Shown piece by piece: positions 3,039-59,303 of a DNA stretch of 64,000 nt. Both the position numbers and the translations under genes were made by a program. Location of the stretch: NCBI GenBank assembly GCA_963931925.1, contig OZ007574.1, forward strand, positions 39,314,438 through 39,378,437. Direction: 5' to 3'. Under the pieces are notes generated by a model that was given only the letters and a program-made list of their open reading frames with translations, did not search any database and had not been told where the DNA came from. The first letter of the stretch is position 1. Each line of letters begins with the position of its first letter. The DNA is from Onchidella celtica. Lineage: Eukaryota > Mollusca > Gastropoda > Systellommatophora > Onchidiidae.

Positions 3039-5732
3039 TTACTCTGCAGTCTTTGAATGCTTTTTCTTCATGTGAGTCATGAGGGATGTTTTAAGTGTAA
3101 AACCCTGTCCACACTCCTTACAGCTGAAGGGTGCCAAGCCTGTATGAGTGGTTGAATGTCTAAGTAGCTCACGTTTTTCCATGAAGCCTGCCTGGCATAT
3201 GTCACACTGATACGGTTTCTCACCTGTATGTTTACGCTCATGACGAACCAGGCTGGATTTATTCGCATAACCTTTACCACATACAGAGCATTTGTGTAAC
3301 AGCTCATTTTTGTGCAATGACATGTGAGCCCGCAGCTTAGAATTTTCTAAAAATGTCTTGGAGCAAACCTCACATTTATGCTTGAAGACTTTCACACCAT
3401 AATGGGAATTCAGATGCCTTTCATAGAATTGTCCTCTTTTTTTCCAGCTAAACTTCTTTCCACAGACTGGGCACTCTAGTGTGCTGGTTTTATGTTTTGT
3501 TTCCATGTGAAAATGAAGGTCTTTCCTGAATGAGAACTTATCACCACAAAATTCACATATCTTGATCTCTCCTTTATGACGATGACCACGACATTTCTTG
3601 TGAGGTTCTGTCCATTTTGGATCCTTGGATGGGACCTGATCTATGCTAGAGAAATTGCTGCTGATATCCTGCACTCCAGAGCCAGTGGTGGATGTGATAT
3701 CTGAGCCCAAGTAACTCATTGATGTTGTAGTGGCAGAATCAGGGTGTTCCAGGTCAGCTTCGTCTTCAACTAATCCTGTGAAGAAATACTCAGAGGACTT
3801 TTTTGTCCATTCTCTCACTTTCTGTACAGCCAGAACCTGACTGAGGTGCTCTTTTAAGTGTTCAGCTAAATTTTCAATGGACTGACAAACATATTTACAT
3901 GTTATGCACTGAAGGTTGCTATCCACGGGTTTATTCTCCCCTATTTTTGCTGCCTGAATACCTGTATTCTCCTTATCATTGTCCATATTCAAATCTTCAG
4001 TGGCTTGTGATTGGTTCTGTTGTTCAATATGACTGTCCCTTCGAGTCTGTGAAAAATCTGTGGCAGTTTCTTGGCCAAACTTACTGAGATTGTCTTGGGG
4101 CTTTGTGGAATTCTCCTGATCGGTTAACAATGTCAGAGATGAATTCATTTTCTCTTGAAGATTGGACAGAGTACTAGAATCAACTGTTGAAGACTTATTA
4201 CCTTGAGGGGGCCCAAAGCTGTTTATTCCATAGTGATTTTGTTCATGCATATGTTTGATGAGAAAATGTCTTTTCCTGAAGACTCTATCACACACACTAC
4301 AGCGATGAAAGGACAACACTGGACATTCTTTACGCTGGTGCCATGCGATATTCTTCCTTTCTATAATCTTATCACAAAATTTGCATGCTATTCTAAACCC
4401 ACCAGGGTTTCTCTCCTTAACTGGGTCACTAACTTCACTCTGCATGTCTTGTGAATTCAGTCCTGTATTTTGTGGCTGCATAAACCCAGACCACAATGGT
4501 GGCACCTTCCCTTTCATCATTAATTTAAGATATTTCTTCCATTTCAATTTTCCAAACTGACCAAAGTTCTGATGAGGATGATGATGATCAAAGTGATGTG
4601 GATGGTACAAGTGTGGAAAAGCTGTTGGCTCCCTATACTCATGATCATGGCGTGGATGAAATGAAGGCGTCTTTTCCATGGTAGGCTTTTGCGTTCCAAA
4701 GTCTTCAGTGATTATTGAGCTTCCGCCAATATTACTGGATGTGGACATTGACACCTCTGAAGTTTCATCCTCGTTGAGTGACTGGTATGAGCTTGAGTTT
4801 TGAGTATACAAAGAAGGAGGGGGTGGAGGTGTAGGTACTGGATGATGAAAGTGTGGTGCGGGATAAGGAAACGGGCCTGGACAATGTGGAGGTGGATGGT
4901 GTCTGAAAGGCATATGGAACCATGGTGGACCTGGAGGTCTCCAAAAACGAGGACGTGGTGAAGATCCCATTAAATGGGGAGGAGGATACGGTGCAAAATG
5001 ATGATGAGCTTGATGTTGCCATAAATTCTGCTGCGCTAATTTTTGTTGTCGTTTTTCATACTTGTGGACCACAAGGTGACACTCCAACTCAAATTTATTA
5101 TCAAAGTTTGAATCATCACATTCATAACATTTCAGTTGTTTTGAACCGTTTTCACTCTCATCATAGTGAGCTTCTATAACATGGCGGGTCAGTTTGATTT
5201 TGTTATGGAACCTTAAATTGCAATGATTACAAGTGAACATGCCACCATGTGCATGTTTCATGTGCCTTCTTAAACCCATTTCGTTGGCAAACCAGTTTTT
5301 ACACATATCACACTGTGCTTTTTTTTCCTTAAACTGGCATGACCAACGTTTGTGAGCAGCTAATTGCACAGATTTTTCAAAACTATTGCCACATGAACAA
5401 ACAAAAGGCTTGCTGCTTGCTGCTCCAGCCAAAGTTTTGGCACTTCCAACTTTCAACAGTGTTTCAGCAACTGTATGTGTTGATTCTGTCTCTGCATCAT
5501 TCACTGTCTCCTTATTATGGGCAGGATTCTGAACAGCCTGCTCTGTTACAATATCATGAATGTTGCTGTCCTCTGCAATACTTAATTTCCTGGAAAATTC
5601 AGGTACTAGTTGTGTGGAAATATTACTGGTGGCTTGAGGTTCCAGATTTGGTGAAACCCTGACAGTGTCACTGGTTTCCTTGGGCTCACTGCCACCTCTG
5701 TTGGCAAAACCAGAGTCACTTTCCTTCTCCAT
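3039..5732 (-). CDS. C2H2 multi-zinc-finger protein, single coding exon (897 aa)
   Basis: This is probably a nuclear DNA-binding regulator. An N-terminal Ser/Thr/Glu-rich segment (about residues 1-105) is followed by a first group of about four fingers (about 105-225, including CDMCKNWF and CNHCNLRF cores). Next comes a long Pro/His-rich region (about 240-420), then a pair of fingers (CKFCDKII, CSVCDRVF), an acidic Ser-rich linker with an isolated finger (CITCKYVC), and finally six fingers at the C-terminus. A canonical TGEKPY linker lies between two of those last fingers. I count about 12-13 fingers; one in the final block (CPVCGKKF) has a lengthened spacer. The start is the ATG at 5732, because an in-frame TGA lies 18 bases upstream. 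A 5' UTR exon further up is possible. No KRAB, SCAN or BTB domain is visible, so I cannot name an orthologue. Zinc-finger identity is certain; the DNA target is unknown. Confidence 0.9.
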   Translation of the reverse strand: MEKESDSGFANRGGSEPKETSDTVRVSPNLEPQATSNISTQLVPEFSRKLSIAEDSNIHDIVTEQAVQNPAHNKETVNDAETESTHTVAETLLKVGSAKTLAGAASSKPFVCSCGNSFEKSVQLAAHKRWSCQFKEKKAQCDMCKNWFANEMGLRRHMKHAHGGMFTCNHCNLRFHNKIKLTRHVIEAHYDESENGSKQLKCYECDDSNFDNKFELECHLVVHKYEKRQQKLAQQNLWQHQAHHHFAPYPPPHLMGSSPRPRFWRPPGPPWFHMPFRHHPPPHCPGPFPYPAPHFHHPVPTPPPPPSLYTQNSSSYQSLNEDETSEVSMSTSSNIGGSSIITEDFGTQKPTMEKTPSFHPRHDHEYREPTAFPHLYHPHHFDHHHPHQNFGQFGKLKWKKYLKLMMKGKVPPLWSGFMQPQNTGLNSQDMQSEVSDPVKERNPGGFRIACKFCDKIIERKNIAWHQRKECPVLSFHRCSVCDRVFRKRHFLIKHMHEQNHYGINSFGPPQGNKSSTVDSSTLSNLQEKMNSSLTLLTDQENSTKPQDNLSKFGQETATDFSQTRRDSHIEQQNQSQATEDLNMDNDKENTGIQAAKIGENKPVDSNLQCITCKYVCQSIENLAEHLKEHLSQVLAVQKVREWTKKSSEYFFTGLVEDEADLEHPDSATTTSMSYLGSDITSTTGSGVQDISSNFSSIDQVPSKDPKWTEPHKKCRGHRHKGEIKICEFCGDKFSFRKDLHFHMETKHKTSTLECPVCGKKFSWKKRGQFYERHLNSHYGVKVFKHKCEVCSKTFLENSKLRAHMSLHKNELLHKCSVCGKGYANKSSLVRHERKHTGEKPYQCDICQAGFMEKRELLRHSTTHTGLAPFSCKECGQGFTLKTSLMTHMKKKHSKTAE

Positions 5733-7185
5733 CAGGCACCAGCTTTCTCACTCAACTGATAATTATTGTTCAAATTCCTATGTGCCACTTGTGAAACAGC
5801 ATCTGCCTTCAGATCTGAAAAATAGTAACAAAAAACATTTTGATGTTTGGTTCTTTTTTAAAGTCTTTTCTTTCTGACTGTCAAACAGGATTAATTACGT
5901 AGATTTATCAACCTTAATAATGCTGTGTGCAATAGTTACACACAAAAAAAATCTTTCCCACGAAATTTCAAAATTGCAATAAAAGATTTGAACACGAAAT
6001 CAAACAAATGTAAAAACAAAAATTTATCAAATTAAACTGTAACTATTTAAATAAAATGAAAATCGTGAGTTATGGAAATCTCAGACTTGGTCCATTTGTA
6101 GCTGACACCTTCGATATAATTATATTTTAAAAAAATAAAAAAAGTAATTCACCGCATATCAATAGAAAGCGTTTACATTGGAAGTATGGAAGTTATTGCA
6201 CACTGAATGTATGTTTATGTTTCAAAGGCGATTCCCCACTCTTATTCTTAAATCCCATGATGACAACAGACATAAACGGTACATCGTACATCATAAATTC
6301 AGCGTTAAGATGCTGACCTGTCGTACAATGAAAAACACAGAATCAGCTGCTTCCGCTGTCACCCAGAACACTAAATGAAATATAACATATTTTAATTACC
6401 TTATTATTGTGGCTCCTTATGAAAAGTAGTAGGGAACTGATTTTAAAAATTCAAAATCTACAGTACAATGCCAAAAATATGCGAAATAGATGGGTTGTTT
6501 TTTTTATGACACCTGGATATTTCTCCAACTTTTGTGAATAACATTTGATTTAGGAATTTTAATGCCACCACAGAAATCCGCAAAAGCACTAGAGCTGTCC
6601 TTGCTTGACCAAAACAGGCCCATCAAGACTTAAAATCACGATACAGAATATTCCCCAACTCCATACCATTATTATAAGACTTGAAGGAACATGTCCCTCT
6701 CTCTTTCTCAGTCCGAGTCGCTGCCACATGAAAAAGTGTGTTTTAGTTTTAAAATTTAAATTATGACTATATGAGTATAAACCAATTCTACTACCTGTAG
6801 GCCTACATACCATTCTAATAATAAATTAATTTAATAAATCTACAAAATTGCCTGTTCATAAACTGTGTGTGAGCTGAATTAGTTTTCAGCATTCTCTGAG
6901 TGGTAAGAAATTCCGTGACTATTTGTGTAAACAGGCGACCATTTTGCTACCTATTACAAGTCACTTCACTATCTAAATCTCAATCTAGATCTTTGTCAAA
7001 TACTTCCCCAGACCAGTTTTCAGTCATTTAGTTTCCCATGTTTTTGCATGTCCTGGTAGAATGGCACAAATTTCTACAATTTTGCCATAACAGTTTTAAT
7101 TTATGCAGACAAAGTTGAAAGAGCTGTGGACTATGAATGTTGGTACTTAACTTTTCCGCTGCTTTGTGACAATAAATAGTGTAAT
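5733..7185. other. non-coding region upstream of zinc-finger gene
   Basis: AT-rich sequence that should contain the promoter and any 5' UTR exon of the zinc-finger gene reading away on the minus strand. I see no convincing coding exon. No TATA box or CpG-dense stretch stands out. Confidence 0.4.
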
Positions 7186-13300: not shown

Positions 13301-14568
13301 CAGCCAATATACAGGAGAGTGTGAGGGTGAAGACATGATGATGACTGGTACAAGAAAAAACATGGTCTAATGCTATTAACTCTCCTTCTGCGAGCAGTGC
13401 CTTAATTTCTCTCTGGCATCCTCATGGGCTAGTTTAATAATGCTATATCGTCTCCCCTACTCCCCCGGCACACCCATCAAATAGACAAGCATGAAATTGA
13501 GCATGGTTAAACCATTTCTATCTCTTCAACGGCAACACAATTTTGAGACTGTACCCTCTTTTGACCAATATATATATGAAAGAGAATCTTTCTGTTAAAA
13601 GGGAGTGACATGACAAACATAACCTTACAAAGAATAAAGAAGGATTGCAGCAGGACCATGGAAATGTTTTGGAAGAAAAGAAATTTTTATTTCCGCTTTC
13701 ATTTTAAATAGGTTCCACTGTACTTTACAATTACATTAGATGTATTATTACATTAAACTTCATCATGAAGCAAAGAAGTCAAACGTAAAGTAGGATATTG
13801 ATACCTAGATCCAAACCTTTCATGACTGTAATAACATGAGTATCATGAGGAAAATATTGCTAAAGCTGTGCTTCTCTAGCAGGTCAAGTGTAGTTGAACA
13901 ATTTCATTAAGTTCCAAAAGCAACACAGCATGGTTTTGATGTCATTTTGTATTTAGGATTACAGTTTATTTTGTTGCTGGCAGTCCCATTTTCTCTGATG
14001 TTAATACATATGTTATACATGTTTTCAGTGTGTTTTCATTTTCATATTTCTAAGAAAGAACTTGTCTTCCTCAGGTATCCTGACCCCAACAATTTACATG
14101 GTGAATTTTGCGAACAACTCCATCTACATGGAAGAAATTGAAAATGCCATCACTGTTCGAGAATACATCAGTTCTGTGCAAGATAATGAAAAAGACTCTT
14201 CATGCGCTACTTTAACTCCTTTGGCAAGTGCAATTGGTGGGATCTTGGGCAAAATGCATGCCAACAACATAATCCATGGTGATCTAACAACATCGAACAT
14301 GCTCTTACAGGGTGATCCATCTGATTTGAAACTCTTTCTTATTGACTTTGGTCTTAGTTCATTTGAGGCATCTGCTGAAGACAAAGGTGTGGACCTCTAT
14401 GTGCTAGAGCGGGCGTTTCTCAGTTCGCATCCCAATACAGAAAAAGTGTTTGAGCAAATTCTACGGGAGTATTGTGAAAGTTTGGAAAACAGTAGTGCCT
14501 GCAAAGAAATCATTGCAAAACTGGATGAAGTCAGAATGAGGGGCAGGAAGAGGACCATGGTGGGCTAG
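10330..14568 (+). CDS. TP53RK: TP53RK / Bud32 / PRPK, KEOPS complex kinase-ATPase (2 exons, 226 aa)
   Basis: Exon 1 is 10330-10516 and exon 2 is 14075-14568. The donor CAG|GTATGC and acceptor TTCCTCAG split a Gly codon in phase 1. The family is an atypical small kinase that acts as an ATPase in the KEOPS (OSGEP/TP53RK/TPRKB/LAGE3) complex, which makes the t6A modification at position 37 of ANN-decoding tRNAs in cytosol and nucleus. Visible signatures are VKERFKKNYRHPQLD with the catalytic Lys (exon 1), YMEEIE in the hinge, the catalytic loop HGDLTTSNML, the IDFGLS metal-binding motif, DKGVDLYVLERAF, and the C-terminal RGRKRTMVG tail, which is essentially the animal consensus. The length matches the family (human about 253 aa). 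The intron is 3.56 kb. The stop is followed by a truncated MITE copy from about 14.78 kb. Nothing is missing, so I take it as functional. Confidence 0.95.
10517..14074 (+). other. TP53RK intron
   Basis: A phase-1 intron with GT-AG ends. It is AT-rich, with several CTAGATCTAG palindromes (about 11340-11370, 11120 and 12135) and a 15-base G run at 13117-13131. I find no nested gene. Confidence 0.8.
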
Positions 14569-16428: not shown

Positions 16429-17112
16429 TTACTCTGGTGTAGAACCAGCCTCCTCGCACTCGGGACACACCCATGCGTGCTCAGCTCTCCACGCCATCAC
16501 GTCGGACAAGGTCTTCTCACTAACAACTCCAGTAAGATGTTGATTGAACAGTCGTCTTGCAGTACCATGCAACCGGCTCTTGACTCCACAGCCTCTCCGA
16601 TGCCCAAACAGTTTTATACGTTCCATGGTGTCCCTGTCTTCTTGTGGTGCTGTTTCTCTCAAAGCTGCGAGAATTTCGTTTTCCCCGAGACTAAGAGAGC
16701 CTTGCATTGGGGCCTCACCAGCAAGCTTATCCGCTCTCTCATTTCCAGATACTCCAGCGTGTCCAGGGGAGAAGATCCAAGTCAGCCTTTTCAGTTTACT
16801 ATCGTGCAGATACTGCACCCATTCAGGTTTGAGGTATCCTGTCTCTATTTTCCTGAGCATGCTCTGGGAATCTGTCACAATGACGGCACATGTGTGGGTG
16901 CTCCTCTGTAACCATGCAAGTGCGTTTTCAGCGGCTACCTCCTCCATTTTCATACTAGATGTTGTGACTTGATATGCAGCTCCATCTTCTGCCACTGTCC
17001 TGCCATCAACGCTGACCGTGTATCCCCATCCAGATCTTTCTCCTCTAGTGACTGATCCATCTGTATACACCACTGCATCTCCTGTCCTGCTTTTCTCGTG
17101 CACCAGTTCCAC
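16429..17112 (-). pseudogene. LINE (non-LTR retrotransposon) RNase H domain fragment
   Basis: An open frame of about 227 codons encodes a type I RNase H. The four acidic positions are all present: YTDGS, the Glu in KMEEVAAENAL, VTDSQSML, and the Asp in HAGVSGNERADKLAGEA. A C-terminal tail with a CPECEEAG cysteine pair follows, as in the last domain of I/Jockey-like LINE polyproteins. There is no ATG at the domain start and an in-frame stop lies just upstream, so this is a 5'-truncated copy: no reverse transcriptase or endonuclease precedes it. It sits between two inverted MITE copies. Domesticated RNase H is an alternative, but nothing here shows a promoter or initiation codon. Confidence 0.8.
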
Positions 17113-17889
17113 TTTACTTTGGGAACGTATATTCTCTTAGCACTGAAAATAAAAGCCACGTTAATCTACTTCAAATAAAGACTAATTTCGTCTCTTCGAA
17201 TATCGACAAATTGACTATGATAGCGCTTGAAACACTTCAGTCCTTTAATTCTAGAAACTTCAAGAAGATCATTCATTTCACAGTGTCGTGCATTATACTC
17301 ATGATAATGAAAAAGTTCCTTCATTCTTTTACAAACTTAAATCGCTGTCTGTGCAGGATACTTTTTGCGTTAACCAAGCACACTCAAAAACAAAACAAAA
17401 AAAACTGAATGAACAATTTTTCCTCTACAATAAATTAAACTGTGTATTAGGTAATATTAAAAATACTGCAAAATTCATCTCCACCAATACAAGAGACAGG
17501 TACAGAATTTTTTCTTCAGAGATGGAGAGCAAACGTGCATCATAATGTGTTCCAACTCCAGCCATTTTTACTAATACTGAATAATGATACTGATCATTTA
17601 ATAACTCCGCAAGAATGAGATCCCCAAAGGTAATATAATATACATGTACCATGTAAATGATGCCACCTAACTACATGTACATGTAAAGGATAACATGTTC
17701 CCTACCTTTGTCAAGTTGGACAAGTTTTAGTTACCGGTACCAGAAGAGTTGCAACATTAATTTATTTACGTAATATCTTGACCTACATCATTTTATTCTT
17801 CACTAGATATTACAGAATCTTTTACCCCAGTTCTTTCCGTCCTCGTTATTCTGCAAAAATAAAATATACCACAATCTATTCTATGTTAA

Positions 17890-23048: not shown

Positions 23049-26000
23049 TCAACTATTTTCATCTGCTAGTATATCTGATAAATCTCCACGACCAATTTTG
23101 AGAAAAACACTGGCTAAGTTAGTTTTAGTGGCTTCATCTGGTTTTGCTCTTTTCCACTTTAGGAGAATCTGATAGTTCAATTCACTGTAGTCAGGTCTAT
23201 GCTGCATCTCCAGTTGATCAAGCTCTGCATCCTCAAACCCCAAACGACGTCCCATATCTTTCCAACTGTAGCCTAATCTGTCCTTTAGGTCAAGCATGTG
23301 ATCTCGAGACACAGATTCTGTACTCTCTGGAAGGAACATAGGAATAGCAGATGATAGTGTTGTGAAGTTTTTGTACACAACAATAACAGTCACTAAAACT
23401 TGACCATAACTCATTAACCCTCACCCTGCGAAGGGCAGTATATGAGGGCATCAACCTTCCATGCACTCACTCTGCACAGGCGGACAAAGTCAGCAAAGTC
23501 AAGCTGACCACGCAGCGCGCAAGCCGGATTTTCACACGTCGGGTCACTGACCTCTTTGAGACGTAACTATCATTTTATTGCTCACTGTATGATGTGTATC
23601 TCTTCTAAATCAAAGGCATTGTGACAAGGACATGTTAACCAGTGAACCACTGGTGGGAATCACAAAGACTAAGCTTTCAAAGGCTCTCCCCATGCTATCA
23701 AAAGATGTAACATCGACTTGCGAAACTGTTGCTCAATAAATCTGCAATATTATCTCATTTTCTCACAAGCTGACATAAACTTGCATTGTCTGTACCTAAA
23801 AACCAATCAGAAACAAGCTCTGAAACGATCTTTGCCCCAAATGCACACATTGGTTCATTAGTATGTGTCAATCAGGATGAAATAATTTGTTTAGGGCTTG
23901 TGGGGCGTGGCTAGTTATCATGCTTTGTTCTCATGAAAAGTGCAGCTGTCAGTTTAGTTTCATAAGTCAGATCATTGGTTAGAGACTTACTACAGACAAA
24001 GGTTTCACTGGGTAATCCATTATCAAGCGTGATAAAGCATAGCAGCGAATGTTTTCATACCGATCAATAAAAACCGAGCCGTGTGGACAGCAGTTGTGTG
24101 GTCATCGTACATTGGCAAATGTCAGTGAGACCCAGGCACGATTCTCCGTGAGTAAGGTCACTGACCGGACAGCGGGCTTTGAGTGTCAGCCGCAGGGTAA
24201 GCGTTAATGTTGTTTACTTTCATAAAGAGATTTTCCAAAGATATTTGACAAAGTCTTCTGGAAATTGCATCTAATTTACTTATCATCACTGCTCTACGAG
24301 AATGGCGCATGTCAGACTTGGGCCAAAAGGCAACTGGTGGTTCATTATATTCCTGAGCATGCGGGCTGTTAGATAATACTACAGAAAAAGAAATGCGCCA
24401 ATAAGAAAATGTAATAATCCAATAGAATTGTAATGGCATGAGTCATCAAATGACAGGAAAAGAAACAGTTTTTGCTTAATATCTCAAAAGTGTCAAAAAT
24501 GACTTGTGCCATTAGCACAGAGCAGTGACGATACAAAATGTTGCCAAGCACAATGCTGTTTTCTATTATAATTTTTTTTTTTTTAATTTCATTGCCAGTT
24601 GGCATGATGGTAAAACTCTTCATATTTTCTTCACCTTAGGAGTAATTAGTGTGCACTATCATTTGGTACTCAAATCAACAATCTAAATTTTTATGCATTT
24701 TCTATCAATCTTATGAAAGTCTGTACCATTTGGTATTTAAATCAATAATCTAACTGCATTATATCCCACGGCTGTTTAAATCGCTTGGAAAGCGGTATTC
24801 TAGTTGCCGATCGGAATCCCCCACCGACCTCCCGCGATGCGGTCATAAATCACCTGTCAGCCGTGTGCACATCCGTGACGGCATGCCATCCCTGGTCAAG
24901 CCTGTGTAATACGATTCCACCAATTTTCGCATACCTTTGCAGCGCGATATCTTCCGATCTAATAATGCTACAGCACCATGCGAGATCTCATTTTAAACGT
25001 CAGGATTGTACCAACAGGACGATATAACTTTTGCTGCTTACTTTTCAAGATTGTTGATTTTATCGGCTGATATTTCCAGTGTGTGTTTTTTAGATTTTGG
25101 AATTTGATTTTCAACACTAGTTCTCTTTAATCGTCAATATTTTGCACGGGCCGCCTTTGATTTCCATATAAAATCAATATTTCGAAAGTGTAAAGGCTAA
25201 CCTCTAACCCGTGCAAGTTTGGTGTATGTATAGGTTCTGTGTGATTTGTTTACGATTTTTGAAAAAGTTGTGCGACTCAATCGAGGTGCTTCTGTGCCAT
25301 TTTTTGTTTGTTTGCCGCCTGTTATTAGCAGCTTGTGTGAAAAATATTGCAAAATGGAGCACCATGAAGAACATATCCACGTTGAGCGCCTCCACGAACT
25401 GTGTCGAACATGTGGTGGGAGGACACTTACCAAACAGCAAAAACGGCAAAGGCGGAAAGCAAAGAAATGCAAGGACTTTGAGAATGACATTTTGCTTGCT
25501 TTTGGTGTATCCATCACCGGCGACTTGAATCATATTCACTCCTCAACTATTTGTTATTCGTGTGTGGCCATGATAGGAAACATCAAACGCCATGCCTTCA
25601 AAGGTAGTATTGTTAACGCCAGGAAGTTGGCCCAAGGAAGTTCACATTTATGGACTGAATTTCAGCCACACACGAGGGCCGCAGATTGTGTATTATGTGC
25701 ACAGTATTTAAAGACTAGTTTGGGGAGTAGACATGTTTCAAATGACTCCACACCACATCAAGACAGAGACCAAACAATAATTTCCACAGCAGCAGCAGCA
25801 TGTTCAACTACGACATTAGAGGATATAATCCCTTCGCCGATAATACAAAATTCAACATTTGAGGAGACAGCACCAACACAAACGATTGCATGTACAATAC
25901 AAGACGCAATCCATCGTGACATAACGGAAGCCACATCAGCTACATTACATGACACATCCAACCTATCAATGACCTGTAGTACAACATGCGAGGACACAAC

Positions 26001-29000
26001 GCTAACAGAAAACACACCGTCATCTAGCAGTGGCCTTAATGAGGCAGAGTTGAGCGGCCCCCCTATTGCTACATCAACGCCACACAAACCTACAAAGGTT
26101 ATGGTAGACAGCAACACCTCACCGGCATTTAAACACGACAAGTTATTTTCCCAGTCATTCGAATTGTCCCCAACACGGCCACTTACACAAGAAGAACATA
26201 AACTTCACACACATTTTGTTAGGAGACGATTGAATAATTCAGAAACAAACATTTTCAAATGCAAGACAGGAGGCCAACCTATACTATTAGCCAAACTAAC
26301 AAAAACAAATAAAGAAACATCTCTAGCCAAAGAAACCACCAAAAGAAAACGCACACATTTGCTTTCTACCATTAGGACTAGCATAGCGGGCGCATCACAA
26401 GACAGTATTACCACACAACATGCATCAGAACTTAGACAGGTCAAAACAGCGACACGAAAGAATATTTGTGAGGAGGCAGGCATTAAATTAAAACCACAAA
26501 TGAGCAGCCAGTCTGTGATGGCAATGAAGGAAGCTACAGATCTAACATGGAGCCAGTTACGTCAACAAAGACGGTATCTTAAAGAAGCTGGCCTCATGTT
26601 GCCAAATGAGCAAGAACAACGGAAAGCCATGGAAGATCTGGCAGCTGACATTGTCACAGAGATGGAGGATTTTATTGACGCCGATGGACAGACACACCGC
26701 GCAGCATTCGGGAGGGTTTCAAATCTATCAGATTTTGTAGTCAACATCTTAGACAAACAGAAAAACAAAATGAGACACTCACGTGGCACAACTCCACCAT
26801 TCCACAGGATGAAATTTGGGTTAAGTTTGGGGGGGACCACGGCAAAGATAGTTTAAAATTTACTCTTCAAATAGCTAACACACAAAAAGCCAATTCAAAA
26901 CACAACACATTTCTAGTTGCAATGGCAAAAATCAAAGACAGCTATGAAAACCTTGAAACATGTATGTCTGTTTTACAACCTCAACTTGCAGAGCTTTCAG
27001 CACTAGTATGGCAGGGCAAGAAAATAGTTTTATTCCTTTTTGGGGATTATGACTTTCTTGCTAAAATATATGGACTCTCTGGTGCACAAGGCACATACCC
27101 ATGTCTGTGGTGCCTGGCGCCAAAGTCCCACATGATGAAATTACAAACACACAACTCTCCAGCCCGCTCTTTGGCCACCATTAAACACGACTACAAACGT
27201 TTCAAAGAGGTCGGCTTAGGGCTGAAGAAACATGTGCGCCGTTTTCACAATAGTCTCCACCTCCCAATGCTAGATGTAGATCCAAGCCATGCTGCTCCGC
27301 CATATCTTCATATTTTGTTAGGTATTGTGCTGAAACACCATCGCCTGCTTGAAGAGGCTGCACATGAAATCGATGTGCAGTTGGGCTTACAAGCAGAAGA
27401 TGAATGCAAAGGTGTGTCTGCGTCAATAAAATCCTATGGAAGCAACTGGCCAAAGGCTGAGGGACTCGAAGAAAGAATTCGGTTCCTGCAAGGTTGTGTG
27501 ACTCTGACTAATGATGAAGAAGAGAGAAGCCGTTTTCAGGAGAAGCTCTCAGATGCAGAAGAAGAGTTACTCAACCTTGATTTCGAGCCCCTCAGCCCTA
27601 GGTCAGGGCCCATCTGCTCACAACTAGACAACATTCTTGACAAACACAACATTACACCTCAGTCATACCATAGCCGTTCATTCATCGGAAACCACTGCCA
27701 CAAATACATCACTGCCAAAGTTTATAAAGACATTACTTTGTTCATTATCAAGAAAACACAGGAAAACACACACAACCAGAGCATACTGACCATGGCTTTC
27801 GTGTTGCGGGACAAATTTAATGAAATAAATGAAGCATACGCCAAAGTTCACACATTAATATCACATGGAAAACCTGTGCCACCTAACAACATTCCACACA
27901 TTCAAACTTGGATTACTAGGTACATGGAATTATTCAGATGTTCTTTCCCCAATAAAATCATACCTAAGCAACATATTCTAGAGAAGCACTGCCTTCCCTG
28001 GATACAGAAATACGGGTTTGGTATGGCACTGCATGGTGAGCAAGGGGGCGAGCTCATTCACGCTTCTGTGGCCAAGTTAGAAAGACGGGCAGCAGCCATC
28101 AAAAACAAGCAACACCAACTTCAACTAGTCATGCAGTCACAACATCTACAAACCTCCCCAGAACTCCAAGCATGTGCTCCACCAGTGAAACGAAGGAAAA
28201 CAAAATCTTAATCTGTGACATTATTTATAATTTTATAGACCCATTCATTGTTTTTGATTATTTGTGAATTTGTGATAACATATGACTGGTTAAGTGCAGG
28301 CGTGACATGACACTGACAGTGAGGCCAACGGAAAACGATCGTCAAACTCGAATAACTCGACACTGGATATCTATACATGAATGCAGTCATGTGAGTTTTG
28401 AAAGTTAACCTATTTCTCATGCTGTGTGATGATTTCACCTCATTCGATGGGGCCAATCATATCTAATTTCATATCTGAAATTTATGAACAATGTACTCAT
28501 TTGAGGAAATATTGTATAATTTTGTGCCTCTATATCTCTACTACGATGTTGAATACATTTCTATGGTTCACTGTATACATTTACAATATATCGCTAAGTT
28601 ATTATGTGTTTACAAAAGTATGACATATGGGCTGATTTGGGTGTGAGACTGCTTTGATTACCGATAAAAAACAGCGAGTCAGAAGCGCTAAACGGGCTCC
28701 GGGAAACCCCCCCCTAGAATCGAGGTCGCTGACCCAGTTAACGAGGTCGCGACCGGGTCAGGTCACCAATAGCGGGGAGGCCGCTCGACTGGGCTCGGCA
28801 ACTAGAATACCGCCTCTTAACAGCCGTGATCCATCTGTCCATCAATCTTATGAGAGTCTAATAATTTATTTTCAGTTACTTTGATTTATCCTGGTCTCAT
28901 ACGTTTGAAAAGGACAAATTGCCTTTCAGGAACTGGATTCTAAAATTTTGAACCACTGGGATGAATCTGGATATGTTCATATCATGGAAACAGAGATATG

Positions 29001-37462: not shown

Positions 37463-37873
37463 TACTGAAATACATGTATCATTATGTGGTTGACTTCGAC
37501 CTAAAACTACTAAACCTGAAACCAAAAAAAAGATGTATTCTTTAGGACTCTCTTGGAACCGCATCAATATTTGGTGTCTGAAGACTAAATGAATGGTTTC
37601 AGTATCACAGCGCTATGCTATTCCTGGAGAATGCCAGTGACTATAATCAGTCTAACCTGCTATTGCTAATTTGCTGCAACCCCAACAGTTCAGTAGAGTG
37701 TAGACCTTTCAGTGCCATGCTTTGCTAGGCTATCTGGGCTCATAACCTTATTTATGAGTGCATTATATGAAATGTATCTTCTCATTCACCCTATTAATTG
37801 TGTTGTATTGGGATTTGCAATGACTCCGACTCAGCCATGATAGCGCATAATTTCTTATTTTCCCAGAGCTGGT

Positions 37874-40800
37874 ATGGTGACATCTTGTGCTGCTTGGGGC
37901 TGCACCAATCGGCAGACCTCAAAGCGATCGGTTTCTCAAGAAAGCAGAGAGAAAGACATAACATTTCATCGCTTTCCAACGAAAAAGCCAGCTCTGCTCT
38001 CTAAATGGGTTGCTGCGGTCAGACGAGAGCATTTTGTACCCACGGCATCTCACCGCTTGTGCAGCGTGCACTTCGTACAAGATGATTTTGGAGACAGTGT
38101 CCACAGGCGCATACTGAAATCAAGTGCTGTGCCATCAGTATTTAGTTACCCTCAGCATCTGCAGAAAAGCAAAACACCAAGGAGAAAGCTTGAGAGGAAG
38201 TCTTTGCAGACAGTGAGTCCCAGCATGATAGCTAAAAAGCGGACAAAGGCAACGGCACCTTCAGTTATGCTCAAAGGGTTTAGGCATGATCATACATATG
38301 CCAGAGCAAAGAACACAGAGAAATCCCTCATGGAAATGAGATCAACAGTGACGAAGTTGAGAGCGAAGGTAAAGCTTCTCATAAACAAGGCTGCCCGAAG
38401 AAAGAAGAGTGTTATGAGACTAAGTGGTATTATTAAAGAACTTAGGGACAAGAAACTCGTAGAGACTGCTGCTCATGAGATCTTAGAACAGGCTTGTGAC
38501 ACAGAAATGAGCTTAACTTTATTCAGACACCTCATGCACCAGAGAAAAACCCATAAACATGCTAGACGATACAACTCTGCAGTCAGCAAATTTGCAATCA
38601 CACTACACTACTTATCACCCAAGGCGTACAATTTCATCCGCCCAACATTACACTTACCACACCCAGCAACACTTCGAGCTTGGAAAGGATCCATCGACTG
38701 CAGCCCAGGTTATTTCAGTGCCATGCTTAAAACAGTGGAAAAACATGCAAGTACAGGAGACAATGTGTGTTCTCTCATCATTGATGAGATGAGTCTTCGG
38801 AAAGAAGTTACTTGGTGCCCAAACAGTCACACTTATCGTGGTCATGTGGACTTTGGTGGAGGCCCAATCAATGACACAGTTGCTTCCAGCGCTCTTGTCT
38901 TCATGGTTGTGTCAATGAAGAGACATTGGAAGACACCAGTAGCTTACTTCCTTACGGATCACATTGACAGTGAGAGACTCGCTAGTAGCATCAAGGAGGC
39001 TTTGATGCGTACGGCTGATCATGGCCTCATCGTCAAAACGGTGGTAGGAGATGGCTTGAAAGCCAATATGAAGGCTGCACGCCACCTCGGCTGTGATATC
39101 GATGCTGTCAGCCCAAGGCCATATTTCTCTCATCCCCACCCGTCCTTCCGTGATGAAAATGTTTTCTTCATTTGTGACCCACCACACATGCTGAAACTTT
39201 TCAGGAACCTGTTAGCTGAGTATGGGACAGTATACCGGGCTACACCAGAAGGTAGACTGCCAATATCCTGGAAGTATGTGCGAGCTCTTCATGAATTGCA
39301 AGTGGGGGATAGTGTCTATCTTGCTAACAAGCTGCGCAGCAAACACATATTCTACAAAAATGTAAAGATGAAAGTAAATGTCGCTGCACAGACTCTGTCC
39401 TCCTCTGTGGCAACAGCGATTGAGCACCTCAGGGATGACCTAGGCCTCCCACAGTTTCTTGGCTCAGAGGAAACATGTAGGTGCATCCGCTTGATCGACA
39501 GCCTGTTTGATATGCTGAACTCCAAGAACCCTGTAGCTAGAGGCTTAAAGGCTCCCATCTCAGCTTCCAACAGAGCTACCTGGGAGAAGGCATTACCCGA
39601 TGCAGTCCAGTATATGTTGTCCTTGCAGAATGCTTTGGGGAAGCCTCTTCATCAGACACCAAGAGGACAGACAATAACTGGTTTTGTCATCACTGCCGTG
39701 TCGACCCTTCATCTGGCTGATGACCTCTTGACCAGAGGAGTTCTGAGATATCTTCTGACGTACAAGTTTTCACAGGATCACCTGGAAATGTACTTCAGTA
39801 AGGTAAGTCTCAGTTGTTATTTTTTGTTTGTTGTTGTTGTTTTTTTTTTTCTTGTAGATTTCATCTGATTCCAACTACGTCATTGATTAAATTTAAATGT
39901 TCAGGTCTCTACTATTTACACATTTTTTATTACTCCAGTTTCATGAAAGCTGTTATATGTATACATATATCTACTATGTCAAATTGAAAACTTTAAAACA
40001 CTAGAGTTGTGACTATCATTTTCCTGTTTGTTTGATTTATTTATTATGTTTCTTGAATTCTTTCCAGTTTTGGGACATGGTTTGTTGTCAGGTTTTGACA
40101 GAGTTATTACTTTTCACACTTTTACTGTTCCTCGAAATTGTTAAAATAGTAAAGGGTCATGACTTGTGCTGTAAGTGTAAGGTAAACAAGGATGAATCAA
40201 GAAGAAATTATACTGGGGAAGGAAATGGAAAAGATATCGTTTTCAAATACTAAGACTGCATTTTTAAATAATTTCAGATTCGCCAGAGGAATGGTTTCAA
40301 TAATAATCCGACTGCAGATCAGTTCAGGGCCTCTCTGAGAACCCTGATGCTCCAAAATGACATCCGTGCATCAGATTATGCCAATACAATACAGCAGGAT
40401 GGCACACATGAACTGCAGCTGGAGTCTTCACTATTCAAGAGGCAAAAGAAAGCGAAGATATCTGTTGAAATCACTGAGGACAGTGATTTTCTGGCTGCTG
40501 TGGACAGTCTTGATGCAGTGTTTACGTTATCTGACACAGATTGGAGATATTCCTGCATAATGTACACTGCTGGGTTTGTTAGCAAGCGCTTGGCAAAACA
40601 GATCAAATGTGCAGACTGTAAAGGTGCCCTTACAACTGACTCACCTCCACCCAACGATCTGCGCTATTCGTTTTTTCGAAGACGGAACAATGGTGGCCTT
40701 GTTTGTCCTTCGGATGGTATCATCCAAATCCTGGTCGCCACTGAAAAGGCTTTCAGGCTTCTTATGCCCAGCCCAGAATTGATGACAACACTCCCTCATG

Positions 40801-41075
40801 GCCAGAATATCGATGCACCAATCCAGGCTTTAGTAACATCCTCCTTAAGGGATAAGTATTTTACCCTTTTCCCAACTCTGGAGGCACACTTTTTTGACCA
40901 TGAGCACATTAACGAGGAAAATCATATCTCACAGCTCATCAAAATGATAGTGTCATATTATCTCAGGATGCGACTTTTCAAAGCCGGAAAGCTCCATCAA
41001 CAAAGAGTAATTCTGGGTGGACAGTCATCCAAGAGGATTAAGCTGAATAAGCTGGTCCTCTTCAGTGGACAATAA
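37874..41075 (+). CDS. THAP9-like / P-element-type transposase (2 exons, 908 aa)
   Basis: Exon 1 is 37874-39802 and exon 2 is 40278-41075, joined in phase 0 (AAG|GTAAGT ... TTTCAG|ATT), giving HLEMYFSK-IRQRNGFNNNP. The N-terminal THAP zinc finger (about residues 1-90) has Cys5, Cys10, the LCSVHF CxxH pair and AVPSVF. A coiled region follows (about 140-215), then the P-element RNase H-like core with IIDEMSL, GDGLKANMKAARHLG and DPPHMLKLFRNLL, and FSQDHLEMYFS with the probable catalytic Glu near the splice junction. The family makes cut-and-paste transposition through a THAP DNA-binding domain; human THAP9 is about 900 residues, so this is full length. I see no internal stop. Flanking terminal repeats were not found, so it may be a live element with unrecognised ends or a host-kept gene. 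Confidence 0.88.
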
Positions 41076-42727: not shown

Positions 42728-43779
42728 ATATATATATATATATATACGACCCTTTTCGTCTTTGCAGACGGTCTTTGCAGCATTTTCTGACTTCAAGACA
42801 GATGCCGAGAGCAGCTCCTCTCATGACTAATCCGTCCGATATTCGATTTACATCTTCGGTCACAGAGTGAGCACATATACTCGCCTTCGTTTGTGACTTC
42901 ATTTGTCTTTTCCTTCCTTTTCTGTCTTTTTTCTTCCCTAATTTCTCTTTGATTTTTTTCAAATTTGGCAGCACCTTTCCTGACGGCTCCCTTCCAGGTC
43001 GTTCGATCTTCTGCCACATTTTCCCATGATTTTTCATCGATCCCAAAATCTTTCAGTGTGGTCCTGCAGATATCTTTGAAACGTAGTTTTGGTCTACCTC
43101 TTTGACGTTTTCCCTCTTTTAGCTCACCATACAGTATCTGCTTTGGGATTCTACTATCATCCATTCTTTTGACATGTCCTATCCACCTGAGTCGTCTTGT
43201 TCTCAGTGTTGCTTGAATTGAGGTGAGCTTTGCTCGTTTGAGAACTTCGCTGTTGGTGATTTTGTCCTGCCATCTGATGTCCATGATTTTCCGCAGGCAG
43301 CGAAGATGGAAGCTGTTTAATCTTTTTTCGTGTCTTGTATAGGTGGTCCACGTTTCGCAGCTATACAACAAGGTACTGATGACACAAGCTTGATAAATAA
43401 GAATTTTGGTCTTGAGTGTCAGCTTTTTGTTGTTCCAAGCTCTCTGAGATAACCTGCCAAAAGTTGTAGCTGCTTTCCCAATTCTGGCGTTTAGTTCTTC
43501 ATCCAGGGATAGTGATGCTGTTACTGTGGAGCCAAGATAGGTAAACTTTTCAACTGAGTTGATCTTGTTGCCGTTCAATGAAATGTCGGGAGGAGATAGT
43601 GTACCTTGTCCGATTACCTCTGTCTTTTTAACACTAATTGTCAAGGAAAAGAGGTCGCATGCATTTGACAATAAGTCCATCATATTTTGCAGTTGTTCGT
43701 TGTTTTTGGCTACTACTGCAGCATCGTCTGCAAAGAGGAGTTCACGCAGCATGATTTCTCGAGACCATAAAAACAGCAC
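42728..43779 (-). mobile_element. 5'-truncated RTE-like LINE with (TA)n tail
   Basis: The minus-strand open frame 43779-42793 encodes the end of a reverse transcriptase. LLFADDAAVVA contains the catalytic FADD, followed by FTYLGST, RIGKAATTFGRL, CLRKIMDIRWQDKITN, LRWIGHVKRMDDSRIP and GKRQRGRPKLR, and a final Cys/His cluster (CSLCDRRC...HERSC). The N-terminal half of the RT and the endonuclease are missing. Downstream of the stop a 3' tail ends in a TA-dinucleotide run (42728-42746), typical of RTE-like elements that end in short tandem repeats. The surviving frame has no stop, so the copy is fairly young, but it cannot retrotranspose alone. Confidence 0.85.
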
Positions 43780-44937
43780 ATACTGCTACGAGGCTGCAAT
43801 TTCACCAAAGATACTAGAAACGATCAATTCTATAGTGTCTTTGATTACACACACAACTTCAATCACCCTCCAAAATTTATTTTCATAAAGAAAAATGATT
43901 TACCTTTAATTAGGTGGTATGAAAATTAATTAATTGAAATTTGAATGTCCAACAAAAGAAAATAGAAAAACAAGCTAAAAATACATTTTTTAGGCCACAT
44001 TTATTTGCAGACGTCTGCGGATAAGATCTGGATCTTTTTCATAGACGCCTGCGAATAAGATCAGTATCTTATTTGCAAATGGATTTTGGGTTTTGTGATT
44101 TTATTTAGGAAGAGCTCCTTTAGATCACAGTTCTGGCTTGTTTTGTTGAATAATTATTAGGCTCTTCACTCGGTAAGATGGCTCGATTCGGAGTAACACA
44201 CGGTGTTTCTTATGGTAATGATGCACCAAGTTGTGGGTTTTTTCAGCGATACTTATCGGTTATCGTGTCCACGATAGCATCAGAGAGACCCCGCTTAGTA
44301 ATGCTTTTACTGAGGTTCCCCAAAGTAAACTCGCCTGTCGAATTGGTAAGGGGGGTTCAAATCTCCCCAAGAGCTGACCTTTTGTTTTTTTTTTTTGGTT
44401 ACTTTTTTTTCCTACTTTTCCCCCCAGTGATTATTGTTGCTTTGCTCCAGTGTATAAAACTGTGTTTACTGTGAGTGTGACTAGGATTTTTTGACGGGTG
44501 TGAAGTCACAGAGAAAGTCAGCCAGAGCAGATAAAAATTAACCAAACTGCCATGCAAACAAAAAAGTAATACATGTAAAACAAAACATGACAAAAAGCTG
44601 AAGCAGAAGACCCCCAAAATATATTTTCAGTAAATGCAGGGCTAAATCAAAGTCACGACAGAGAGAGACAAAATATTCAGTTGACACTGACTGACCACAA
44701 GAAATCATTTACATGTTTAAAATTTGATTTACAGTTTTATTTCTAATTAAGCAACTGTCCCGTTCAATGAAAAGGAATTTAATAAAATGAACAGGAATAA
44801 ATAAAAGAAGTAATCTGGAGCACACTAGTAAAGATCAGTTTCCTAACGACATCAATTTTGCAAAATCCTTAGGGAAAAAAATGATTCCTAATACACTGTA
44901 ATGAGCAGTACTAGGTTTTGAAAAAAAAAAAAAGGGC

Positions 44938-56113: not shown

Positions 56114-59100
56114 ATGGATTTCAAAATTAAGTCGTGTTCACAGCTTCAAGATTATTTGCGAGAAAGAGGTGTTGTGATCAGTGGATTCAAGAAACAAGAA
56201 CTGATTGACTTGTGTCGAAGTGCAGAGAGTCTGGGCATCGAGGTGGACCCAGATGGGATTTTGGAATCGAAGACAGACACTGTAAAGGCTAAACTGAAAG
56301 TTACGGTCAACAGCCAGATCATATATCTTCCAGTTCCAACACAGCTGGACATATCTCACGATTTGAGCCAGATACCAGTTGTAACATCGTTTGATATCCT
56401 GTCGTATCTGGCTCAGTCGAGACATTATTCACACGGCAGTCTTCGAGACTTCACGAAACTGGAGGGCTACTCAATGTTTAAGGATGGGTACGTCCTAGAC
56501 TTGAAGACTGGAAGGTTCGCAGAAAGCCAGGAACACCACCACCTTCAGTTTCAAGTCAAACCACGCACTAATGCAAAGGATCCCAGCAGTGGTCTTCCGT
56601 ATTACCTGGGGTGGATAGTGTTGACAGCCCAAGAGGACAACAACCCCATCGTCAGTGCTTACTGCTGTTGTCGTGGAGGGTAAGTTCTGAATATATTATA
56701 TATATTAATTATATTAACTTATTAAGAGAGACAGGAGAATTATAGGAAGGATTCTCACGCATCTCATACTGGTAGCTGTTGCAGTGTATAGTCTACACCT
56801 TGAAATTGATTTTAAAACCCTTGCGTGACGGAAGGTCTCTTGGTGATTCATTTTTCCCAATATTGCTGAATTTGATTCTGAAGTCAGTTCGACTCTTAAT
56901 TATTTGCTTTGATTCGTTATGCGAGAAAAGTATGATGTCCTTCGTACGTCTTAATGGTCCTGGCCAGCCACTGTCTGTGACGTTCGATTTAATTCCCAAC
57001 GGCATTTTGTCACGATTAACAAAGAGCAAAATATGACGTATGCTGTACATCTTGCAGGTCACAAAAGGGTAGTAACAGTGCCTGGGTATCATGAAAAAGT
57101 GTCTATTGCACAGATTGTAATTAGAAAAAAAAAGATATAATTTCTAATTGTGATCAAAATTATAACAGTACATTTGGAAGGCAATTTCTCGAAGAAATGA
57201 ATGTTCTTGTCATTATTCATGAATGGAGTTTGTAGGTAATCCTTCTTTTTGTGAAAGACAGAAAAACTGAATTTTTTAAAATCCTTTTTGCATCTGAAGT
57301 AACCAATAAACACCATTCTTATTTATAATTTTTTCACAGGATTGATGGTTACTGCCGGCATGTTGCAGCAGCCTTATTTGAATATATGTCATTTGTTGAT
57401 GACAGAGGATCCAGCTGCACATCAAAACCATGCACATGGTATTGTAGAAGAACTGCTTCTTCAACCCAAGCTGTGGAGGTCACAGAATTGAATTTGTCTC
57501 TTGAGCCACGTAGCAGAACACAGTAAGTGTTTTTTTTTTCTCCTGTAGCTGTCCTTACACTACGGAGATCCCCATTTTTACCAACACATACATGGTATAT
57601 AGAAACAAGAGAAGATTTGTGGATGAAAACAAATTTTATTGTAATAATATTGTCTCTATAAAGTTATCAGCATGTGACAAGGAAATGGTTCTAGGAACAT
57701 GGTACCGGTACAAGGAATTAACATGAAATAGTTTACTGTTGCATGTGTCTCCAATGCTTTTCTCCAACCTTTTGTAATGGTTGATTTGATGTTAAGACAA
57801 AAATTGTTTAGAAGCAAGAATGCAGGATAACAAAACAGCTGACATGTATAGATCTATTCAACTGTGTTTCTATCATTATCATAAACGATGTAAACTAACA
57901 CGTGCAGCTGGCATTACTAAAAATGGTGATGGTGAATCTAAATGTCCTTGTGGCTTGAACATGATGATGACACCAATGATACCATCACTCACGAGCCTCT
58001 CTTATCTATGATTACACATATTTATACATGATTACGCTTCTTGTCATCAAGTGCATTTTGTTTTAGTTTTCACCAGCTCTACCCTAAAACACATTTTAAA
58101 AAATGAACATAATTACTCTGATGTGCACAAACATAACATCAGTGTTGCAATATTATGGCAGTAGCTCAACAATACTTTTCCAGTGACAGATGGAAAATTA
58201 ATTATGGTAATATCCTTCATCATTGAAACACGAGAGGCATCAATTTATTATATTACTTACAGAATATTTCATTATGATTCATTCTCTACAGATGTCGAGT
58301 CGCCCAGGCATGTGCTGCCCCCTGGCCAGATCCAGATGAATTGTTTGCAAGTGTGAAAAGAGTGCACCCAGAGGCTGTAACTCTAGATAAAGTATACAAG
58401 CGACTAAAGAAGACACAAACGCCTCTGACAGTGCCATACCCAGATGAGAAATTGAGGGACTTTCTCACTAAAAAATGCACCTGTAAAGGAGGCTGTCAAT
58501 GCAGCTTTACATTTGTGTCAGATGTATTGACTTACTGTAGACAAGAACTGGATGCCATAGAAAAAGAAACCAGAGGTCAGACAAGCAGTGATAACTGGCA
58601 TCGTGTAAGAAAAACTCTGATAACGGCATCAAATTTTAAGAAAGCGTGTCAGAGCACTGATGGAGCTAACACTGCTGTGAATTTAATTCAGGGATCTTCT
58701 TTGAAAGAAAACCAACTGCCAGCAGCTGTAAGATATGGGCGCAATAACGAAAGCAGGGCAAGGAAACTTTTTGTTGATGGACACAGACTGAATGACAAGA
58801 CCTGTAAAAAATGTGATGTTCAGACGACAGGAATTTTTTTGTCCCCAGACATTCCTTTTCTTGCTTGTTCCCCTGATGGGGTAATGAACTGTCAGTGTGG
58901 TCACTTTGTAATAGAGGTCAAATGTTTATATAAATACCGAAATTTCTCCCCATTAATAGCTGCCAAGATGGCAGGAATTGTTGAAATCAATGATGCTGGC
59001 ATTGTTACTTTGAAAGATAAACATCCATACAACTTTCAGATTCAGGGACAGATGTGGGTAACAAACATTAAAACAGCATACCTTGTTATCTACACAGACA

Positions 59101-59228
59101 AAGGAATTTACCCAGTCATGATTCCATTCAATGAAACTTTCTGGACAGCATGTCAGCAGCAATTAGTTGATTTCTACCACACTTTTTTTTATTCAACACT
59201 ATGTAAAGCCTTAACCATTGGTCAGTAA
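56114..59228 (+). CDS. SAP-like / SWIM / YqaJ-type nuclease of ISL2EU element (3 exons, 561 aa)
   Basis: Exons are 56114-56679, 57340-57522 and 58292-59228, with GT-AG junctions and both introns in phase 2. The start is the ATG at 56114; the frame is open upstream without another good context. Residues about 8-45 (LQDYLRERGVVISGFKKQEL) look like a SAP DNA-binding helix pair. A SWIM zinc finger spans the first junction (CCCRGG-IDGYCRHVAAALF: CxC...CxH). The C-terminal part is a lambda-exonuclease/YqaJ PD-(D/E)xK nuclease: WHRVRKTLITASNF, RYGRNNESRARKLF with a conserved Glu, ACSPDG with the metal-binding Asp, IEVKCLYKYR with the ExK pair, and a Gln-rich QIQGQMWV motif. All key residues are present. 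It is thought to assist transposition as a recombinase-type nuclease; that role is inferred from element linkage. Confidence 0.88.
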
Positions 59229-59303
59229 GTGTACTTTTTTTGATAAAATACTGATTGATTGTATTGCCCAACTGTTTTTGTGATTTACATTTTGAAAAGT
59301 AAC

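Follow-up and report, generated by a model that had tools for sequence, protein, structure and literature searches.

The locus and its features

The window analysed here is a stretch of 64,000 nucleotides from the mollusc Onchidella celtica (contig OZ007574.1, positions 39,314,438 to 39,378,437, forward strand). At 24767-28828 it carries a mobile element, very probably a DNA transposon of the autonomous, cut-and-paste type that belongs to the Chapaev (DUF1280) superfamily and has been active in this host recently. Its protein joins a zinc domain resembling the N-terminal region of RAG1 (RAG1-N) to a transposase core. The features of the element, in window positions, are as follows.

24763-24766, no strand: 4-bp target-site duplication ATCC, left copy (duplications perfect in 19/19 full-length copies)
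24767-24776, + strand: 5' terminal box CACGGCTGTT, 10 bp
24777-24791, + strand: long 15-bp spacer of the 5' end (15 bp in 20/21 left ends of the window family)
24792-24810, + strand: 5' inner box GCGGTATTCTAGTTGCCGA, 19 nt, 100% complementary to 28795-28813
25354-28211, + strand: transposase gene, 951 codons in intact copies, split in the window into frames 25354-26856 and 26679-28211
25354-25728, + strand: RAG1-N-like ("Chapa") zinc domain, residues 1-125, from Cys pairs and a Pfam match
26679-28211, + strand: DUF1280/RAG1-like catalytic core, from Pfam and predicted fold, with residue roles assigned by RAG1 register
28795-28813, - strand: 3' inner box, reverse complement of the 5' inner box, from the inverted-repeat match
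28814-28818, - strand: short 5-bp spacer of the 3' end (5 bp in 19/21 right ends of the window family)
28819-28828, - strand: 3' terminal box CACGGCTGTT (reverse strand), 10 bp
28829-28832, no strand: 4-bp target-site duplication ATCC, right copy (perfect in 19/19 full-length copies)

An earlier note on this DNA, made from the sequence alone, had placed the element at 24767-28828 with inverted CACGG termini and an ATCC target duplication. These coordinates proved exact, with CACGG at 24767, CCGTG ending at 28828 and ATCC on either side (24763-24766 and 28829-28832). Inside the termini lies a perfect 19-nt inverted repeat (24792-24810 with 28795-28813). Perfect 4-bp duplications also flank the 18 further full-length copies found at other loci, and the window element is a real insertion. 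Its description as a complete transposon holds for both boundaries and for the single protein in which a RAG1-N-like region is fused to a DDE transposase, but the window copy itself is frame-broken.

Copies in the same genome

With the first frame as query, a search of the genome (1.14 Gb, 43 contigs) gave at least 92 matches; 86 of 1702 candidates were scored, so that all counts are lower bounds. Twenty loci of a near-identical group were retrieved. The whole element aligned in 18 of these at 98.2-99.9% (L036 and L048 are interrupted in the fetched stretch), and each of these 18 full copies has the N-terminal block within the element, as the window copy does. This confirms the block as part of the mobile unit and answers the second refuting condition of the earlier note. 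Mean pairwise divergence among the 19 full copies is only 0.39% (range 0.07-0.67%), indicating that the family was active recently; the copy nearest to the window differs by 0.07%.

An intact single frame of 951 codons, starting MEHHEEH, was found in 13 of the 20 loci, and copies with the same termini and an undamaged frame, which the earlier note had suggested seeking, therefore exist within this genome. Of the remaining seven loci, six have shorter frames and one, L049, reads on to 967 codons and has an altered tail. An indel at 26761-26762, where the frame of the window copy breaks, sets that copy apart from most of the others. A programmed frameshift as the cause of the split frame is ruled out, as the 951 codons run uninterrupted in those 13 copies.

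The transposase core

All motifs listed earlier for the protein are present, with ELCRTCGG, ICYSC and PHTRAADCVLC in frame 25354-26856 and GGDHG, FGDYDFL..PCLWC and GEQGGEL in frame 26679-28211. The core matches DUF1280 (PF06918) at 47.4 bits against a cut-off of 25, and the DUF1280 transposase has been assigned to the Chapaev superfamily (PMC3985635). Landmark residues of the core frame (first codon positions in brackets) are D53 (26835), D123 (27045), C142/C145 (27102/27111), H211 (27309), H432/H437 (27972/27987) and E454/E458 (28038/28050), and the spacing of the putative ZnC2/ZnH2 site is the same as in RAG1 and ProtoRAG (D+19 C, C+3 C, H+5 H). In structural prediction the core matches over the RAG1 core, with the DDE and ZnC2/ZnH2 landmarks. 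The earlier label "DDE transposase" is correct as to type, but this is not a generic DDE domain, since the predicted fold is itself RAG1-like.

At the sequence level, the protein gave no RAG1-core Pfam match at E ≤ 10, alignment of the core with RAG1 by hhalign was not significant (P 0.088), and a search of PDB sequences with the core profile returned no RAG match, the best hit being unrelated (E 0.18). In viral contigs, neither a confirmed relative of the core nor an exact match to the inner box was found. No RING finger was found in the protein by Pfam. Within 24767-28828 there is no second frame longer than 150 aa, and hence no RAG2-like kelch gene among frames of that length. A protein search with the full-length alignment gave only 10 matches, and the homologues of the protein include named ones from Plakobranchus, Elysia, Haliotis, Littorina and Aplysia.

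Bipartite ends with a one-turn asymmetry

In the window family (family A), the one left end without the 15-bp spacing between the boxes belongs to L041, where the inner box did not score, and the two missing right ends are those of L036 and L048, which have none in the fetched stretch. Twenty-four further loci took in additional family A copies, relatives with 71-81% identity in the first frame, both short derivatives and family C. Among them, all 14 recognised left ends have 15 bp and all nine recognised right ends 5 bp; L028, L061 and L066 had no recognisable end. Family C (63% identity over the protein) measures 4,138 bp, with a 964-codon open frame and the duplication TTTC, and of its second copy (L085) only the left end was seen.

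A genome search with the core, in which 84 of 1426 candidates were scored, brought up four more divergent families: D at 46%, E at 43%, F at 42% and G at 41-42%. Ends of D, E and F (two copies each) and of G (one) were found as CAC-starting pairs with equal 4-bp flanks, so that these flanks are a search condition and not independent evidence; in D, E and F, the limits of homology between copies fall no more than 3 bp from these ends. The G2 ends are identical to those of F and were counted with them, and G1 ends were not found. In families A, B, C, D, F and G the inner AGTT of the left end is at position 35 and that of the right end at position 25, counted from the tip (0-based); the corresponding positions in E are 37 and 26. 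The offset is thus 10, 10, 10, 11 and 10 bp in end lineages A/B, C, D, E and F/G, with the longer spacing always 5' of the gene, and this shared asymmetry is about one helical turn. The inner block alone is not distinct from shuffled sequence in C (reached by 5 of 100 shuffles) or D (12 and 17 of 100), and in the other families it was reached by none of 100. The terminal CACAGCG of the family D ends (L069, L070) matches the recombination signal sequence (RSS) heptamer CACAGTG at six of seven positions, which may be chance.

The asymmetry is likely functional. It could instead be a frozen accident, or reflect only the spacing of promoter or binding sites, with no pairing of long and short ends; we consider this rather unlikely, though it is the rival to be taken most seriously. 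Two points weigh in its favour and against a long-short pairing rule: all families tested come from one genome, and the P elements, which are unrelated, also have bipartite, unequal ends, so that asymmetry alone does not amount to a 12/23 rule. Against it stand the near-constant offset of 10-11 bp, in the same orientation, in five end lineages reaching down to about 42% core identity, and the fact that spacer and box sequences changed while the offset stayed.

The RAG1-N-like zinc domain

The N-terminal domain contains the Cys pairs C17/C20, C67/C70 and C112/C115 (first codons at 25402, 25552 and 25687). Its likeness to RAG1-N, claimed in the earlier note from motif spacing, exceeds chance, as the first 136 residues match Pfam RAG1_imp_bd (PF12560) with E 7.5e-8 and 32.7 bits against a cut-off of 23.3; over the whole 500-aa frame the score is 23.0 bits, slightly below the cut-off. 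Going by the published description of Chapa, the domain appears to be the Chapa domain. The RAG1 N-fragment 21wb was matched by sequence. Structure comparison of the domain gave no RAG1 among the matches listed, although 21wb may be absent from the structure set compared. A search using just the N-region as query yielded no match at 1e-3 among 114 candidates.

In sequence, and weakly in fold, 25354-25761 and its relatives also resemble ZAD (zf-AD) fingers, and the two domain families may be related. It is improbable, however, that the block is a ZAD-type dimerisation finger with only a convergent likeness to RAG1-N. In the window, RAG1_imp_bd outscores zf-AD (9.4e-4), and the RAG1 match (residues 2-118) spans the third Cys pair, whereas the zf-AD match (residues 16-88) stops before it; RAG1_imp_bd furthermore scores in nine of ten (best 6.5e-12).

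In a survey of 128 homologues (120 of 196 listed, plus eight new from the search with the full-length alignment), the first catalytic motif is preceded by 350 or more residues in 17. Thirteen of the 17 carry the RAG1-N-like domain, three of them matching only in part and eight having been used to build the profile. One D copy, one E copy and one F copy likewise begin with the domain (1.4e-39, 3.4e-37 and 7.4e-39, in a tiny database), and it was not found in the G2 stretch fetched (L090).

In the comparison of families A and B, the ratio of non-synonymous to synonymous change (dN/dS) is lowest in the core (0.12), followed by the N-domain (0.22), residues 301-480 (0.30) and the linker (0.43). 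No ratio was obtained for A against C, where synonymous sites of the N-domain are saturated. All residues checked, 14 in the N-domain and nine in the core, are kept in A, B and C. Synonymous divergence between A and B (L028 vs L032) reaches 0.56 in the N-domain against 0.20 in the core, a difference suggesting that N-terminal blocks were exchanged between families, possibly by recombination. The same difference lends something to the view that the element acquired the domain at a late stage, from a RAG1-like gene of its host, and did not inherit it with the transposase. We give that view little credence, as the domain occupies the same place in families A-F and in the 13 homologues described above, and lancelet and sea anemone Chapaevs are also reported to have it (PMC4411706).

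Derivatives without a core

By hand count, at least 36 of the at least 92 first-frame matches cover only about the first 240-340 residues (71-89% identity), and many of these 36 share one stop pattern. Two of them, L056 and L057, are elements of about 2.0 kb with both ends (15 and 5 bp) and 4-bp duplications, in which the 5' part with the RAG1-N region is kept and the catalytic core deleted; their N-terminal frames contain stops. The other 34 are presumably alike.

These copies recall N-RAG-TP of Aplysia, which is likewise a mobile element carrying RAG1-N-like sequence. N-RAG-TP is described as RAG1-N-like throughout and has been taken as a donor in a fusion with Transib (PMC8355894). By that description it is RAG1-N-like alone, whereas here the autonomous element also has a core, which L056 and L057 lack. 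A simpler source of N-RAG-TP may be a deletion derivative of a Chapaev. Core-deleted copies offer a route to a mobile "RAG1-N only" element that needs no role as fusion donor to Transib. These derivatives and the bipartite, one-turn-asymmetric ends are the newer evidence, both being absent from the earlier note.

Classification

On Chapaev transposons with a Chapa domain, Kapitonov and Koonin (2015) cite Kapitonov and Jurka (2007).

We identify the element with high confidence as an autonomous, recently active Chapaev with RAG1 architecture. It shares with Chapaevs bearing a Chapa domain the DUF1280 transposase, CAC termini, a duplication of 4 bp in 19/19 copies (3 to 4 bp being typical of Chapaev) and the RAG1-N-like N-terminal zinc domain (PF12560, 32.7 bits against 23.3). 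Chapaev transposases have been reported to carry this domain, and its fusion to the core was proposed to have occurred in a common ancestor (Kapitonov and Koonin 2015, PMC4411706); the fusion seen in the earlier note is therefore real, but as a known Chapaev trait it is no newly found missing link. Two Chapaev subgroups are reported to have a RING finger (PMC4411706), unlike the protein here by Pfam. The excerpts of that paper make no mention of bipartite, one-turn-asymmetric ends for Chapaev, nor was a report of end asymmetry for Chapaev seen in the excerpts of PMC4079192 or in listings of open-licence papers on Chapaev and on Transib or RAG-like elements, most of these papers being seen as listings alone and Repbase Reports not being among them. 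The Chapaev3 subgroup, defined by a 3-bp TWA duplication (PMC4079192), does not fit, as the duplications here are 4-bp and varied.

With RAG1 and ProtoRAG, a RAG-like (RAGL) element, the element shares Cys motifs C1-C3 of RAG1-N, the predicted RAG1 core fold and two spacer lengths. RAGL elements have 5-bp duplications (PMC7204232) and a RAG2 partner, whereas here there are 4-bp duplications and one gene. Transib (HzTransib) differs in having no RAG1-N region and 5-bp duplications (PMC7204232), with symmetric ends in most families (PMC8289069). Despite the RAG1-like core fold and the RAG1-N domain, it is very improbable that the element is a Transib or RAGL, and we reject such a filing on the 4-bp duplications, the DUF1280 match without a RAG1-core Pfam match, and the single gene with no second long frame.

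Other features of the window

At 37844-41075 (+) lies a P-element-like transposase in two frames, with THAP, Tnp_P_element and TNP-like RNase H domains followed by a THAP9_C piece. A YqaJ exonuclease frame (+) adjoins a DDE_Tnp_4/HTH_Tnp_4 transposase frame (-) at 58278-60875, a pairing as in an ISL2EU-type element. Open frame 3039-5747 (-) has 902 codons, with C2H2 zinc fingers near its C-terminus, and frame 14005-14568 (+) has Kdo/WaaP- and protein-kinase-like matches. An RNase H match and a reverse-transcriptase match below the Pfam cut-off, at 16429-17136 (-) and 42793-43785 (-), are likely retroelement remains.

Proposed mechanism and implications

We propose that the core would cut next to CAC with a DDE triad of D53, D123 and E454 or E458, braced by the ZnC2/ZnH2 site as in RAG1, and paste with a 4-bp stagger. 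Each end would be read at two places, the terminal box and the inner AGTT box. At the 5' end the distance between the two boxes is greater by one helical turn, so that a dimer of the transposase would bring a long and a short end together in synapsis, as RAG pairs a 23-RSS with a 12-RSS. A role in assembly or regulation, and not in cutting, is probable for the N-terminal domain, which falls outside the catalytic fold and is nonetheless conserved under purifying selection.

The origins of the 12/23 rule and of the RAG1 N-terminal region are debated. Activity of ProtoRAG, with 27/31-bp spacers, depends on asymmetric ends, and asymmetric ends have been argued to be ancestral to RAG transposons (PMC8289069). 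Invertebrate RAGL, on the other hand, was proposed to read about 15 bp and, unlike vertebrate RAG, to be relatively insensitive to end asymmetry (PMC7204232), so that the two papers disagree on this point. A more distant transposase of predicted RAG1 fold with a conserved one-turn asymmetry provides an outgroup for testing the 12/23 rule, and with several intact, nearly identical copies at hand a cell assay is feasible.

That this asymmetry is ancestral to the 12/23 rule is possible, though doubtful. Equally tentative is the wider proposal that RAG1-type recombinases and Chapaev have their whole layout, and not the core alone, from a shared ancestor: the RAG1-N zinc domain, the RAG1 fold, and two spacer lengths that differ by one helical turn, with obligate long-short end pairing. 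If it is true, N-RAG-TP would be a core-deleted Chapaev and not an independent RAG1-N donor, and the 12/23 rule would be an old rule of transposon synapsis, which DUF1280 elements and RAG have retained and most Transibs have lost.
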